A DNA stretch of 38,313 bases. Source: a virus. Of this stretch, positions 4,677 through 33,766 are shown one piece after another. Numbering within the stretch: the first letter of the stretch is position 1; every line of letters begins with the position of its first letter. Made by a program: the position numbers and the translations under genes. The notes beneath the pieces are model-generated. The model was not told where the DNA came from and ran no database searches. It was given only the letters and a program-made list of their open reading frames with translations. Location of the stretch: the IMG/VR virus record IMGVR_UViG_3300021197_001435, positions 1 to 38,313 of that record, one strand, 5' to 3'.

Positions 4677-4829
4677 ATGAAACACCTTTTCGACAGACAA
4701 CCTCAGGCCGTGGAGATCGTATCAAGAGCAATACCAACAAGGACCAAAGTGAAGATCATTTGGATGTCTGAATTCGATGATAAGGTTTTTATGTGGATTG
4801 AGAACGCCCCAGAACAGGCGCGCTCTTAG
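4677..4829 (+). CDS. 50-aa protein ending in an attC-like element
   Basis: I do not recognise this small protein (it begins MKHLFDRQPQAVEIVSRAIP). The ATG at 4677 is chosen because the upstream part of the frame overlaps MazG. Its last residues, ENAPEQARS, and its TAG stop at 4827-4829 are encoded by the 5' arm and loop of the hairpin at 4799. The unrelated 50-aa protein at 32436 ends in ENTPEQARP in the same way. The shared tail therefore comes from the element and not from common ancestry of the proteins. Confidence 0.6.
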   Translation: MKHLFDRQPQAVEIVSRAIPTRTKVKIIWMSEFDDKVFMWIENAPEQARS

Positions 4830-4854
4830 CGTCGCCTGCTTCGGCTTGTTAGCG
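4799..4854 (+). repeat. attC-like hairpin element, copy 1
   Basis: AAC 4803-4805, then 15 nt, inner stem CGCT 4821-4824 / AGCG 4828-4831, bulged T 4832, CGCCTG 4833-4838 paired with CAGGCG 4815-4820, extra C 4839, 8 nt, GTT 4848-4850. The stop codon of the upstream gene lies in the loop. The spacing is identical in copies 2, 3 and 5. The element ends about 40 nt before the cytosine methyltransferase start. Confidence 0.75.
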
Positions 4855-4896
4855 TCTTACGATTTACGATTACTATGAACACACAAACCAAAATAA

Positions 4897-5625
4897 ATGA
4901 ATGAGCTACACCTATTTGCTGGCTGCGGGGGAGGAATCCTCGGCGGCATCCTTTGCGGACATCGCCCCTGCTGCGCTGTCGAACTTGAACCATACGCAAG
5001 ACGAGTCCTGCTCCAACGGCAACGGGACGGGATACTCCCGTGGTTCCCTATTTGGGACGATGTCACCACCTTCGACGGCAACCCGTGGAAAGGAATCGCA
5101 GATGTCGTCTGCGGTGGATTCCCTTGCACCGACATCTCCTGTGCTAACCAAAAAGGAGAAGGGACAGACGGCGAACACTCCGGTCTCTGGCGGGAGATGG
5201 CACGGATCATTAGCGAGGTGGGACCACGATTTGTCTTTGTGGAAAACTCCCCAAACCTCGCTTCTCGCGGACTTGGACACGTTCTCGGAGACCTGGCCGC
5301 GATGGGGTATGATGCTGCATGGGGAGTGCTCGGAGGTGACGATGCCGGATTGCTTCACCGGAGAAAGAGAATGTGGATTGCTGCCCACTCCTCTGACGAA
5401 CCCATCGAAGAGAACGCTGGACGATACTGGGAGCAGCGTATCCGCGAAAGGGCAACGCTATGGCGTAAGCCTGTGGCAACTGGCTGGCGGGCAACCATGC
5501 CCCCAATTCCAAGAATGGCTGATGGACTGGGTAACGGGATGGACCGGAATCGAGCCATTGGCAACGGACAGATTCCGGTTGTGGCTGCTGGCGCATGGGA
5601 AATCCTTACCGGCGCCGAGCTCTGA
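4897..5625 (+). CDS. dcm: DNA (cytosine-5) methyltransferase
   Basis: The 242-aa enzyme transfers a methyl group from S-adenosylmethionine to cytosine C5. Motif I is LFAGCGGG (residues 6-13), motif IV with the catalytic cysteine is GGFPCTDIS (about 73-81), motif VI is ENSP, motif VIII is RRKRMW, and motifs IX/X end as RAIGNGQIPVVAA. It is short for the family, with a very small target-recognition region, as in compact phage enzymes. The likely role is protection from host restriction. Nearly all of it is overlapped by another frame starting 4 nt later. It lies between two attC-like elements, like a cassette. Confidence 0.92.
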   Translation: MNELHLFAGCGGGILGGILCGHRPCCAVELEPYARRVLLQRQRDGILPWFPIWDDVTTFDGNPWKGIADVVCGGFPCTDISCANQKGEGTDGEHSGLWREMARIISEVGPRFVFVENSPNLASRGLGHVLGDLAAMGYDAAWGVLGGDDAGLLHRRKRMWIAAHSSDEPIEENAGRYWEQRIRERATLWRKPVATGWRATMPPIPRMADGLGNGMDRNRAIGNGQIPVVAAGAWEILTGAEL

Positions 5626-5659
5626 TTCTCCCGCTAACAGCCAAGAACAAGAACCCTAA
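4901..5659 (+). CDS. Overprinted protein in the +1 frame of the cytosine methyltransferase
   Basis: A 252-aa ORF opens 4 nt after the methyltransferase start and runs 34 nt past its end. Its N-terminus (MSYTYLLAAGEESSAASFAD) and the stretch ETWPRWGMMLHGEC near residue 130 resemble, from memory, hypothetical phage proteins found with Dcm-type genes, which argues against an accidental frame. Its end, ANSQEQEP, is encoded by the attC-like element at 5632, matching tails of three other genes. The middle is Ser/Thr rich, as expected of an overprinted frame. No function is known. Dual coding is likely but unproven. Confidence 0.5.
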   Translation: MSYTYLLAAGEESSAASFADIAPAALSNLNHTQDESCSNGNGTGYSRGSLFGTMSPPSTATRGKESQMSSAVDSLAPTSPVLTKKEKGQTANTPVSGGRWHGSLARWDHDLSLWKTPQTSLLADLDTFSETWPRWGMMLHGECSEVTMPDCFTGERECGLLPTPLTNPSKRTLDDTGSSVSAKGQRYGVSLWQLAGGQPCPQFQEWLMDWVTGWTGIEPLATDRFRLWLLAHGKSLPAPSSDSPANSQEQEP

Positions 5660-5686
5660 AGGGTTTCTTGCTTCGACCTGTTCAAA
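5632..5686 (+). repeat. attC-like hairpin element, copy 2
   Basis: AAC 5636-5638, 15 nt, CCC 5654-5656, loop TAAA (contains the stop codon of the 4901 frame), GGG 5661-5663, bulged T 5664, TTCTTG 5665-5670 paired with CAAGAA 5648-5653, extra C 5671, 8 nt, GTT 5680-5682. Compared with copies 1 and 3 nearly every stem base differs, but pairing is kept. It precedes the small terminase gene. Confidence 0.78.
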
Positions 5687-5738
5687 TTGTGCTTTCACTC
5701 CAATTAAAACCGTCTAACTTTAACCAATTACAAAACAA

Positions 5739-6197
5739 ATGCCAAAAGGACTAAACCAACGCCAAGCCGCTTTCGCTGAATTGCTTGTTCAGGGATTAGC
5801 GGCAAGCCAAGCATACAGAAAAGCAGGATACTCAGCTGAGGGGAAATCAGCAGATGAGGCAGCCAGTAGGCTATCAAGACACGTCAAGGTTAAGGAATAC
5901 ATAGACGAAATGAGGGAGGAAGCTAAGGGAGACGCTATCTACACATCAAAAGAACTACAGAAAGACCTCACGACAATGATGAAGTCTGCTTTGGCAGATG
6001 AGGACAGAACAGGCTTCTCAGCTCTAGCTACTCAATTGTGCAAAATCCAAGGGCTTTACCAGAAAGAGACCGTAGACGTGAACTTGAACTCTGGAGGAGT
6101 CCTTGTGATGCCTATGGCTGGCTCAATCGAGGAATGGAACGGGAACCAGGCCGGAGAAGATCAGAAACGGCTAATGGATGATGCCGTTGATGTTTAG
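5739..6197 (+). CDS. terS: Terminase small subunit
   Basis: The 152-aa protein has the Terminase_2 N-terminal HTH pattern (NQRQAAFAELLVQGLAASQA, then YRKAGYS and ASRLSRHVKVKEYID), then a helical oligomerisation region, then an acidic tail. It recognises phage DNA and starts packaging with the large subunit. It is separated from terL by about 2.3 kb, including minus-strand genes, which is unusual. It lies between two attC-like elements (5632 and 6519). The start codon follows the A-rich leader TTACAAAACAA. Confidence 0.88.
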   Translation: MPKGLNQRQAAFAELLVQGLAASQAYRKAGYSAEGKSADEAASRLSRHVKVKEYIDEMREEAKGDAIYTSKELQKDLTTMMKSALADEDRTGFSALATQLCKIQGLYQKETVDVNLNSGGVLVMPMAGSIEEWNGNQAGEDQKRLMDDAVDV

Positions 6198-6258
6198 AAC
6201 GCGCGAGCTGTGGTGCCCGGAGGGGACGTAATGAGTGAAGAATGAACGAATGGAGAAG

Positions 6259-6549
6259 ATGACAAAAACCGAAATTAAATGTGAGTGCGGCCTAACCGTG
6301 GCCATAAAAGAAGCTGGCCCATGTCCGGTCTGCAACCGTCATCTGTGCCCCACAGGGTCATTACCAGCGTCTTGTTCCCGGACCCGCGAAGCGGGGAGGA
6401 GTGGAGGAGGTCTAATTGAGAAAGACCGGACACTTACCGAAAAGCTAAAATCGATGATTTATCCCGGCGGACCCGAATCACTAATAGACCGGGGGAAACG
6501 CCGTGAGCGGAGCGGGTCCGGGAACAGCCAAGAACACCCGCCCCGCTAG
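6259..6549 (+). CDS. Zinc-ribbon-like protein ending in an attC-like element
   Basis: The first 30 residues carry CECG and CPVCNRHLCP, a CxC/CxxC pattern suggesting a small zinc ribbon. The remaining two thirds are Arg/Gly/Ser rich and coincide with GC-rich inverted repeats, so they may not have been coding originally. The end, GNSQEHPPR, and the TAG stop are supplied by the element at 6519. The start is uncertain: GTG 6235, ATG 6250 and ATG 6259 share the frame. ATG 6259 was chosen because GGAG lies just upstream of it. The function is unknown. Confidence 0.4.
   Translation: MTKTEIKCECGLTVAIKEAGPCPVCNRHLCPTGSLPASCSRTREAGRSGGGLIEKDRTLTEKLKSMIYPGGPESLIDRGKRRERSGSGNSQEHPPR
6373..6526 (+). repeat. 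15-bp perfect inverted repeat next to attC-like copy 3
   Basis: Positions 6373-6387 and 6512-6526 are exact reverse complements (arm TGTTCCCGGACCCGC). The right arm covers the AAC end box of the element at 6519. The left arm contains a GTT box and runs into a small hairpin (CCCGC GAA GCGGG, 6383-6395). The DNA in between is GC rich and could form a large cruciform or RNA stem. Confidence 0.6.
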
Positions 6550-6575
6550 GGGTCGGGTGCTTCGACATGTTCGAA
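6519..6575 (+). repeat. attC-like hairpin element, copy 3
   Basis: AAC 6523-6525, 15 nt, CCCC 6541-6544, loop GCTA, GGGG 6549-6552, bulged T 6553, CGGGTG 6554-6559 paired with CACCCG 6535-6540, extra C 6560, 8 nt, GTT 6569-6571. The TAG stop of the zinc-ribbon ORF is in the loop and stem. It ends 23 nt before the OB-fold gene start. Confidence 0.78.
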
Positions 6576-31289: not shown

Positions 31290-31347
31290 TTCGAACAGGT
31301 CGATGCAGGGAGACGGCTAAAGCCGCTCCTGATCTTGGCTGTTCGGC
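31290..31347 (-). repeat. attC-like hairpin element, copy 4
   Basis: On the minus strand: AAC (31343-31341), 15 nt, CGGC-TTTA-GCCG (31325-31314), bulged T (31313), a 7-nt arm, extra C (31305), 8 nt, GTT (31296-31294). The loop holds the TAG stop of the Cys-rich gene. Outer boxes CGAAC/GTTCG pair. It shares the outer sequences AACAGCCAAGA and TCGACCTGTTC with copies at 5632 and 6519. Confidence 0.78.
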
Positions 31348-31583
31348 TGATAAGGGTTCCCGTCTCCGAATGCTACGCAATGCCCGCAGTATCCGTCTGG
31401 GGCGGTTAAATGGTAGCAGGTAGGACAATGGTATTCCGCGTTTTCTGGGCATTGACAGTCTTCGCTGTCACAAATCGAACATGCCGAACAAGGTGTCGCA
31501 GACAACACAGCCCCGCCGCCAGTTGATCCGGCGCTATTCGGTTCGGGTTTCCCCTCTCTTTGATCTCGGCTTTCCGTGGTCAT
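31317..31583 (-). CDS. Cys-rich zinc-binding protein ending in an attC-like element
   Basis: The 88-aa product has a Ser/Gly-rich start and then four Cys pairs (CSAC-SIC, CQC, CPTC, CGHC), suggesting one or two zinc knuckles. The ATG at 31583 overlaps the upstream stop by ATGA; an in-frame ATG 18 nt earlier is possible. Its end, PNSQDQERL, and stop codon are encoded by the element at 31290. The function is unknown. Confidence 0.6.
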   Translation of the reverse strand: MTTESRDQREGKPEPNSAGSTGGGAVLSATPCSACSICDSEDCQCPENAEYHCPTCYHLTAPDGYCGHCVAFGDGNPYQPNSQDQERL

Positions 31584-32392
31584 GGCTGTGCGTCTGGACA
31601 TTGATCGTTCTCCTGAGAAATTACGGAAGTCCGTCTGCTCCCACCCATCCCATTGCTACCGGATCGGTTTCCTGCCAAAATTCCGAGATGTAGTCCACCA
31701 TCTCCATCAAATCCGATTTCGGTTTGTCCTCCCGAATCATCTTCAGAAGTGCCATCGTTGCCGTCTCGAAGTCGGGTTGATGTTCTTCCAGATACTCCAC
31801 TGTCGTCTGTGGTGGTCGCCTTCTTAATCCGGTATTCCCATCGCACTTTATCAGCGAGGCTTTGCTCTTTGTTTCGTTGTCTGTTTTCATTTGTCCAGGA
31901 TGTTCCTTTGTTTTGCGCTGCGGCTTTCCACCCGCTCGCCTTGTAGATTGTTCCCGCATGCACATCTGTATCCTGATAAGATACAAGCAGCGTTAGATGG
32001 GGCATTTCCTTCACGATCATTCTTCGCATGATTCCGATCATCCTGCTCGCAGAGTTGGGCGGTGCGTCGTCACAGATTGCCATCCTGCGAAGTTCCAGTG
32101 CAGTCTTGCCTTCAGCTAGGCGATTCGCTGCGATTGGACTAGACCAGATTGCCACAGCATAGGCTATGTCGTCATACTCTGCCACATAGCAGGCAGAGTC
32201 TTTATTCCTGACCACGTTTGACCAGTCGATTTTCGGGAATCTTGAGTGCCACAAGGCATTCAGTTCGCAAGCTTGATGCACATTGCACCGCCTGATTTTA
32301 AGTTGGAGCGCAGAGGTCGGAATTGCACCGCCTCGTCCACTTCGGAAAAGTGGCATGCTGTCTGTTACATCATCTGCGCAAAATTGTTTCAT
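31580..32392 (-). CDS. mom: Mom-like DNA hypermodification enzyme (GNAT fold)
   Basis: Residues about 35-170 match the Mu Mom family, a GNAT-fold enzyme that converts adenine to a carbamoyl-type modified base and blocks restriction. Signature parts are ELRRMAICDDAPPNSASRMI, a central helix, and VSYQDTDVHAGTIYKASGW. After residue about 195 the sequence becomes Gly/Ser/Asp-rich and does not look like Mom. In that stretch another frame (31621-31890) looks more protein-like, so the tail may be read-through. It lies between attC-like elements at 32410 and 31290. Confidence 0.8.
   Translation of the reverse strand: MKQFCADDVTDSMPLFRSGRGGAIPTSALQLKIRRCNVHQACELNALWHSRFPKIDWSNVVRNKDSACYVAEYDDIAYAVAIWSSPIAANRLAEGKTALELRRMAICDDAPPNSASRMIGIMRRMIVKEMPHLTLLVSYQDTDVHAGTIYKASGWKAAAQNKGTSWTNENRQRNKEQSLADKVRWEYRIKKATTTDDSGVSGRTSTRLRDGNDGTSEDDSGGQTEIGFDGDGGLHLGILAGNRSGSNGMGGSRRTSVISQENDQCPDAQP
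31621..31890 (-). CDS. Overlapping 89-aa protein inside the mom tail
   Basis: This frame lies wholly within the 3' part of the Mom frame. From residue 30 on it reads as a normal helical acidic protein (TVEYLEEHQPDFETATMALL, then DLMEMVDYISEFWQETDPVA) with the G-first codon bias expected of real genes. The Mom frame there is low complexity. The ATG at 31890 has no clear ribosome site. I do not recognise the protein. Either two frames are used or a former mom stop was lost. Confidence 0.5.
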   Translation of the reverse strand: MKTDNETKSKASLIKCDGNTGLRRRPPQTTVEYLEEHQPDFETATMALLKMIREDKPKSDLMEMVDYISEFWQETDPVAMGWVGADGLP

Positions 32393-32409
32393 AGTCGTAA
32401 AATTAAGAA

Positions 32410-32466
32410 GGAGAACAAGCCGAAGCAGGCGACGCCTAAGGGCGCGCCTGTTCTGGGGTGTTCTCC
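32410..32466 (-). repeat. attC-like hairpin element, copy 5
   Basis: On the minus strand: box GGAGAAC (32466-32460), 15 nt, CGCC-CTTA-GGCG, bulged T (32432), CGCCTG, extra C (32425), 8 nt, box GTTCTCC (32416-32410). The boxes are perfect 7-bp complements. It is nearly identical to the copy at 4799 but with a T-A to C-G change on both sides of the inner stem. Confidence 0.8.
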
Positions 32467-32604: not shown

Positions 32605-32665
32605 AGAGAACAAGTCGGAGTAGAGCAATGTCGCTCCGCTCCATGCCTGTCCTCATGCGTTCTAA
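32605..32665 (-). repeat. attC-like hairpin element, copy 6 (divergent)
   Basis: On the minus strand: AGAAC box (32663-32659), GGA paired with TCC, a longer variable tip including GAGC/GCTC, a T at 32627 in the expected bulge position, C at 32620, 8 nt (TCCGACTT), GTTCT box (32611-32607). End boxes, spacings and the GACTTGTTC end fit the family, but the inner stem is irregular. The upstream gene stops inside the AAC box (TTTAGAAC). Confidence 0.55.
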
Positions 32666-32934
32666 ATAGATGGAAACACAGGCTCATCCATTCCCATCGC
32701 TGAGAATACAGGCTCAACGCCATCAGCCTCCATCTCGTCTTCTAAGCAAATTTGGCAAAGTTGGCTTCCTTTGTATTCCTCTAGCTCTAGGTCATCCTCA
32801 TGGCAGCGCTGGCACTCCGTAGAGTTGTCTTCTGATTCTGGTCCTGGCCCGAACTTGTCCAAGCCCCATCCTGTTTTTTCAATTCTGCTCACGAAAGGAC
32901 GATTGCCTAAAACAAAGAAACCGTCAACAACCAA
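32662..32934 (-). CDS. Zinc-ribbon protein
   Basis: The 90-aa acidic protein has two Cys pairs, CQRC (about residue 41) and CQIC (about 60), spaced as in a zinc ribbon. It ends exactly at the attC-like element at 32605. The start is uncertain: the frame opens with TTG at 32934, and an internal GTG (MSRIEKTGWG) is an alternative. It heads the minus-strand cluster, divergent from the gene at 33001. Confidence 0.55.
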   Translation of the reverse strand: MVVDGFFVLGNRPFVSRIEKTGWGLDKFGPGPESEDNSTECQRCHEDDLELEEYKGSQLCQICLEDEMEADGVEPVFSAMGMDEPVFPSI

Positions 32935-33126: not shown

Positions 33127-33200
33127 GGGATAATCCCTAGCAATCGCCCTCTGAGCCTTGACCGGCCAGAGGGCTTTGGAGTGCCTAGATGGCATTTTAA
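33127..33200 (+). promoter_or_regulatory. Double-hairpin leader, copy A
   Basis: GCCCTCTG 33146-33153 pairs with CAGAGGGC 33167-33174 around a loop with CCTTGACCGG. A second hairpin, TGCC 33182 / GGCA 33191, follows, then TTTTA and the ATG at 33205. Copy B at 33690 has the same layout and loop words. Confidence 0.6.
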
Positions 33201-33689: not shown

Positions 33690-33766
33690 GGCCTTATCTA
33701 TAGATGAAATCACCCGCTTAGTCTTAACCGGCGAGCGGGTTTCATGGTGCCTAGAAACGGCAATTT
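33690..33766 (+). promoter_or_regulatory. Double-hairpin leader, copy B
   Basis: CCCGCT 33713-33718 pairs with AGCGGG 33734-33739 around a loop containing TCTTAACCGGC. Then TGCC 33748 pairs with GGCA 33759, followed by ATTTA and ATG 33770. The stem bases differ from copy A while pairing is kept. Confidence 0.6.

Follow-up and report, generated by a model that had tools for sequence, protein, structure and literature searches.

Complementary boxes around a Mom-like gene point to a gene cassette in an integrase-less array of a complete phage genome

Does the Mom-like gene of this phage, which lies among hairpin elements resembling the attC sites of integrons, belong to a gene cassette, and where would such a cassette begin and end? 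The window, which is the whole stretch of 38,313 nucleotides that was analysed, represents a complete circular phage genome of 38.3 kb, as the helicase frame continues unbroken across the end of the record into its start. A terminase comparison placed the nearest phages at 53% identity at best. We consider it likely, with a probability of roughly 0.8, that the Mom locus represents a gene cassette within an integrase-less cluster (CALIN) of attC-type sites in this genome, and that a cytosine methyltransferase is among the cargo of its sister array. The loci act like integron cassettes in a CALIN-like array; this is a statement on the loci, and canonical attC membership of the individual sites is not claimed.

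A covariance model (R1) identified six attC-like hairpins in the window, in two arrays, with E-values from 4e-21 to 3.4e-12; the model was built from nine copies including those of the window, and these E-values are therefore not independent evidence. Array B (32666-31290, minus strand) consists of the modelled sites E6, E5 and E7, and array A (4799-6575, plus strand) of E1, E2 and E3. The hairpins of array B were present in a single orientation at 32605-32666, 32410-32466 and 31290-31347, as the original prediction had placed them, while array A lies beyond the coordinates that it covered. Every site has the same orientation relative to its own genes, and the two arrays run in opposite directions at separate loci. 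Across the rest of the window the next best match had an E-value of 0.54, the reverse strand of E5 being excluded. Independent copies were detected by the model in L140, L097, L005 and L173, and the site family is present in several unrelated phage contigs, with few copies returned by exact site patterns in viral contigs. The arm pattern, allowing up to three mismatches, gave 20 matches against 4.5 expected, a number reached in none of 100 shuffles. E1 and E5 are 94% identical across 52 nt, and E3 and E7 have a common right flank, GTTCGAAATTT. Searches of the sites against Rfam and for tRNAs returned no match. One exact pattern, scanned against 84,980 species genomes, revealed no true copy, which counts against the cassette reading; it gave two matches, both apparently due to chance and within coding sequence, and a host integron was rejected as the source of the sites. 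A separate 48-nt repeat (33142-33189 and 33708-33755, 75% identical) forms a CCCTCTG...CAGAGGG hairpin, precedes small genes and is unrelated to the attC-like sites.

Read in the gene direction, a site takes the form GAACAGCCAAGAACAGG-stem/loop-CCTGCTTCGRCYTGTTC. The AAC and GTT end triplets were invariant in the nine aligned copies, and, as in attC, the consensus fold comprised an R stem, an unpaired central spacer, an L stem in which one base bulges out, and a loop that varies between copies. Two-sided changes in at least one sequence were observed for 8 of the 15 pairs of the RNAalifold structure. The single-strand folds were more stable than those of shuffled sequences for E5 (z -6.3), E7 (z -3.8), E2 (z -2.5/-3.6) and the further site E8 (z -2.6/-2.8), which is described below. 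The preceding ORFs stop at or inside a site (for example ...NSQDQERL, ...NTPEQARP and ...NSQEHPPR, each followed by the stop codon) and the following gene starts 10-60 nt past it, as is characteristic of integron cassette arrays. Two properties count against the cassette reading. The full heptamer consensus RYYYAAC/GTTRRRY was matched by none of the eight right boxes of the window (GTTAGCG, GTTCAAA, GTTCCCG, GTTCGAA twice, GTTCTCT, GTTCTCC and GTTCGGC), which are mostly GTTCNNN, and the extrahelical base of attC, a G on the bottom strand, expected on the R''-L'' arm, is missing from that arm in the folded window sites. Instead, a conserved one-base bulge is located on the L'-R' arm in the gene direction, as seen in E5, E2, E7, L140 and L096. 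In the original prediction, the attC sense strand was taken to be the one that does not carry the genes, a choice consistent with where the bulge lies; in tested phage attC sites, for example those of Tetrasphaera phage TJE1, the sense strand is instead that of the genes.

For an integron cassette to be excised as a circle with a foldable attC, its initial heptamer (GTTNNNN, located in the preceding attC) has to be capable of pairing with its own R'' box. This relation was found in the window, where four of the six intervals between neighbouring sites were perfectly paired over 7-14 nt and the other two paired at 6/7 positions, the latter being a point against the cassette reading.

Array B opens with E6 (32605-32666, minus strand; R'' TTAGAAC, R' GTTCTCT; E-value 3.4e-12), which closely matches two sites of L140. 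The first small cassette (32611-32460) contains a 50-aa ORF (32588-32436, minus strand, taken from the ORF list) that had correctly been placed between the elements at 32605 and 32410. Its stop codon falls within the loop of E5 and its boxes, GTTCTCT of E6 and GGAGAAC of E5, pair at 6/7 positions; a search with the protein found no relatives. E5 (32410-32466, minus strand; R'' GGAGAAC, R' GTTCTCC; E-value 4e-21) is followed by the Mom-like gene, a 270-aa frame at 31580-32392 on the minus strand. The proposed identity of this gene was borne out, as aa 95-185 matched PF25680 with 60.8 bits against a curated cut-off of 27.1, and PHROG 1384 (phrog_1384) was matched with an E-value of 2.9e-22. The family performs DNA modification of the phage Mu mom type, its members being expected to modify adenine and to block restriction.

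The original prediction had bracketed the Mom locus by the elements at 32410 and 31290. Both elements are real; however, the right box of E5 (GTTCTCC) and the left box of E7 (GCCGAAC) pair at 4/7 positions, so the segment 31290-32410 is not one cassette, and we rejected it as such. A hidden long-loop attC-like site, E8 (31483-31613, minus strand), lies inside this segment, with R'' GGAGAAC at 31613-31607, L'' CAGACGCACAGCC, L' GGCTGTGTTGTCTG and R' GTTCGGC at 31489-31483. Its hairpin can be written as CAGAC-G-CACAGCC / GGCTGTG-TT-GTCTG and encloses a loop of ∼80 nt. Given the fact that E8 pairs with both neighbours (8/8 to E5 and 7/7 to E7), the Mom cassette spans 32416-31607 on the minus strand, from GTTCTCCT to AGGAGAAC (8/8 complementary), and ends at 31607 rather than at 31290. 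The same pairing defines a second small cassette at 31489-31341 (GTTCGGC/GCCGAAC, 7/7), which reaches E7 (31290-31347, minus strand; R'' GCCGAAC, R' GTTCGAA; E-value 1.4e-18), the last site of the array. A 94-aa ORF from the ORF list (31317-31601, minus strand) crosses E8 and ends in the E7 loop. Dinucleotide shuffling reproduced both E8 boxes in order, along with an L helix of 7 bp or more, in 1 of 20,000 shuffles. E8 is not detected by R1, and it counts against the cassette reading that E8 and the candidate site E4 of array A were recognised partly via their own boxes. What is supported is the general view that an anti-restriction gene lies in a short array of attC-type cassettes whose edges fall in the GTT/AAC boxes.

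The content of the Mom cassette is composite. The two Mom homologues found outside, in L093 and L094, are 85-87% identical over aa 1-190 only (32392-31824), starting from the ATG, and neither lies between complementary boxes. Mom proper ends at ∼31824, and the remaining 80 residues are a read-through into an unrelated frame after loss of the stop codon. A partner gene of 59 aa (31621-31800, minus strand, GTG start at 31800) has homologues in L178 and L179 with 77% amino acid identity over 61 residues, where the homology begins at ∼31805 and no such sites occur around the gene. Since the Mom relatives stop at aa 190 and the partner homology starts at ∼31805, two phage genes have been joined inside one cassette.

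Array A starts with E1 (4799-4854, plus strand; R'' TGAGAAC, R' GTTAGCG; E-value 6.4e-18), followed by E2 (5632-5686, plus strand; R'' CGCTAAC, R' GTTCAAA; E-value 1.3e-18). The right box of E1 and the left box of E2 (GTTAGCG/CGCTAAC, 7/7) delimit a methyltransferase cassette at 4848-5638 on the plus strand. It encodes a C5-cytosine DNA methyltransferase (4897-5625, plus strand; PF00145, 87.6 bits) with homologues in L095 (92% amino acid identity) and L096 (90%). The terminase small subunit gene (5739-6197, plus strand; PF03592, 48.2 bits) is located between E2 and E4 (6194-6380, plus strand; R'' TTAGAAC, R' GTTCCCG), a candidate degenerate long-loop site obtained by reading the sequence and not found by the covariance model. 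The E2 and E4 boxes around it are paired at 6/7 positions, so that array A may include a packaging gene; a search with the terminase small subunit identified no relatives. The right box of E4 pairs with the left flank of E3 at 14/14 positions, and E3 (6519-6575, plus strand; R'' CGGGAAC, R' GTTCGAA; E-value 1.5e-19) is the last site of the array. At the outer ends of both arrays, a search for partner boxes gave no exact one, which counts against the cassette reading.

The methyltransferase region contains two overlapping open frames on the plus strand, 4897-5625 and 4901-5659, with starts 4 nt apart, which score on the methyltransferase PHROGs 363 and 1008. The double frame is also open in L095, L096, L140 and L006, and dual coding is possible. 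A third DNA-modification gene, N6_N4_Mtase (PF01555; 36690-37568, plus strand), is located outside both arrays.

The homologous methyltransferases allowed the edges of this cassette to be compared between phages. The window and L096 are homologous at the nucleotide level over 4886-5629, up to three bases short of the box at 5632, and each of the three homologous genes lies between its own complementary boxes of 7-9 nt, with perfect but different pairs: GTTAGCG/CGCTAAC in the window, GTTCTCC/GGAGAAC in L096 and GTTCTCGCT/AGCGAGAAC in L095. The check put forward in the original prediction, a search for breakpoints in the boxes among related phages, thus works on array A. Among mismatched flank pairs, a common GTT+4 complement occurred in 1.3%. 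Around the 90%-identical methyltransferase genes, the bodies of the attC sites vary from phage to phage on either side, while their boxes co-vary; a simple model in which a gene and its attC move as one does not predict this, and it counts against the cassette reading. A stretch of 22 nt, CTTGTTCTCCTTCTTAATTTTA, is identical in two contexts, preceding Mom in the window and the methyltransferase in L096.

Further perfect intervals were observed in L140 (10/10), L006 (14/14) and L147 (11/11). Six of ten intervals were perfect, compared with a mean of 1.0 in re-pairings, and 32 of 200,000 re-pairings reached six, a statistic that is somewhat generous, since it was their boxes that drew attention to L147 and L006. 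In L147 (235-1125), a 56%-identical methyltransferase is found between near-canonical GTTAGSC-box sites (GTTAGCC and GTTAGGC). As a positive control, all five of the five intervals tested in TJE1 and Polaribacter phage P12002L followed the box rule. In P12002L (L176:37263-38882), the annotated Mom-like gp53 adjoins the methyltransferase gp54, and each lies between perfect 8-nt boxes (GTTACCCA/TGGGTAAC and GTTACCTA/TAGGTAAC, respectively). Mom is thus seen a second time as the cargo of a cassette, in a phage unrelated to this one.

The genome encodes no recombinase of the phage integrase family (PF00589), as determined by a search that detected it in all 14 of 14 control genomes. The arrays therefore do not form a complete integron, and they correspond to integrase-less clusters. 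CALINs are defined by at least two neighbouring attC sites and no integron integrase nearby; each array here contains three to four attC-like sites and PF00589 is absent, a site count that hinges on accepting the sites as attC-type.

The architecture of the sites, their arrangement in arrays, the complementary and co-varying boxes and the cargo families are read directly from the genome. From these we infer the circles, the recombinase, the present-day mobility and the anti-restriction effect that the following mechanism would involve. In single-stranded phage DNA, a site would fold into a hairpin through the R boxes (AAC/GTT) and the L stem, and the GTT box would be cut by a tyrosine recombinase of the integron type, which the host or another element would provide in trans. 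The DNA as far as the next site would be released as a circle, whose own start and end boxes would pair and rebuild a foldable attC, allowing insertion elsewhere. The Mom and C5 methyltransferase families have an established role in shielding phage DNA from restriction. Both arrays carry DNA-modification genes; this cargo would modify the phage DNA and defeat host restriction, and the exchange of cassettes via the trans-acting recombinase would change the protection. We regard as speculative, and rather unlikely, the further notion that phages keep their own attC lineage, in which the bulge that selects the strand lies on the opposite arm relative to the genes, as a currency for phage-to-phage anti-restriction exchange that is served by a recombinase other than a classical IntI or one acting on the coding strand.

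The box pairs also bear on what else the hairpins might be. Dispersed mRNA regulatory elements, such as weak terminators or translation couplers that were duplicated without site-specific recombination, would equally be expected between co-directional genes in a fixed orientation, with the upstream stop in the loop, a start 10-60 nt downstream and folding far stronger than in shuffles. An RNA hairpin, however, needs its own boxes to pair and not those of the next site 150-800 nt away, and it is the pairing between sites that is conserved and co-varies. E2 illustrates this, since its own boxes pair poorly (GTTCAAA vs CGCTAAC), yet it pairs perfectly with E1. Given also the absence of an Rfam match and of a T-run after the hairpins, as a terminator would have, we consider this explanation improbable. 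Similarly improbable is that Mom and the methyltransferase are ordinary phage genes moved by homologous recombination past incidental hairpins. The Mom homologues of L093/L094 and the partner gene in L178/L179 do occur without such sites; against this stands the box-to-box fit of both genes here, of methyltransferases in three other contigs and of the Mom-like gene in P12002L. The bulge on the opposite arm and the non-RRRY boxes would also allow the sites to be substrates of another hairpin-recognising enzyme, for instance a REP-associated or IS200/IS605-type Y1 transposase. We give this very little credence, as Y1 systems need no complementary boxes of 7-14 nt at the cargo ends, and the identical box rule holds in TJE1 and P12002L, carriers of sites that recombine with IntI1 (PMC9892861).

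A different matter is whether the attC sites are dead relics, the cassettes having been acquired in a single illegitimate recombination event with a bacterial integron and passively inherited ever since. Such an origin would fit a genome without a recombinase, the placement of the two arrays at separate loci and in opposing directions, the imperfect boxes of E6/E5 and E2/E4, the degenerate E4 and the lost Mom stop. However, most intervals still pair perfectly and differ between phages, which requires that the pairing be maintained; several unrelated phage contigs contain sites of this family, which, for the one pattern used, is seen in no scanned bacterial genome; and the cargo homologues of L093, L094, L178 and L179 are in phages. 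Relic sites are possible, although we lean against them and favour cassettes exchanged by a recombinase acting in trans.

These results suggest that anti-restriction genes are swappable between phages as ready-made units. Provided that the sites are active, lytic phages would pass such genes to one another as separate cassettes, and the chemistry with which a phage lineage protects its DNA would be exchanged box by box. The test for box covariation works without any attC sequence model and reveals cassettes overlooked by such models; R1 finds no site of P12002L or TJE1 and misses E8. It further allows the fixed polarity of attC relative to the cargo, as held by the current model of strand selection, to be tested.

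Phage CALINs with methyltransferases have already been published for the virulent phages TJE1, P12002L and Pseudoalteromonas phage PH101 (Qi et al., 2023; PMC9892861). Sites of TJE1 and P12002L were tested experimentally and those of TJE1 recombine with IntI1, and the P12002L CALIN is described with two methyltransferases, Mom not being mentioned in the parts consulted (PMC9892861). In the parts of the literature consulted, we found no description of Mom as cassette cargo or of the present attC family, with its bulge on the opposite arm from canonical attC. The arrays presented here resemble the CALINs of TJE1 and P12002L in their attC-type hairpins, the lack of an integrase, the methyltransferase cargo and the inter-site box complementarity of 7-9 nt, and the TJE1 boxes GTTATAC and GTTATGC likewise fail GTTRRRY. 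They differ in the family of site sequences, as R1 is specific to the window-site family and finds nothing in those phages, and in the bulge, which TJE1 carries on the canonical R''-L'' arm and the window sites on the L'-R' arm. Compared with the phage CALINs of PMC9892861, the boxes are mostly GTTCNNN, the arrays are two and separate, and the cargo includes Mom, on which the consulted parts of that paper are silent.

In integron attC sites, only AAC and GTT are strictly conserved (Bouvier et al., 2009; PMC2727003). The window sites share with them these ends, the R and L stems, the unpaired central spacer, the variable terminal structure and a self-complementarity extending past 7 nt, and are unlike them in the arm that carries the extrahelical base (R''-L'' in attC, L'-R' here) and in the unmatched GTTRRRY (PMC2727003).

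With regard to the cargo, the Mom-like gene is a member of its family (PF25680, PHROG 1384) over aa 95-185 and differs in its location within a cassette and in a C-terminal extension of 80 residues that results from read-through into an unrelated frame. The methyltransferase matches the orphan C5-cytosine methyltransferases (PF00145, PHROG 363) over its full length, and such genes are common in phages. What sets it apart, together with its counterparts in L095, L096 and L147, is its location between complementary attC boxes.
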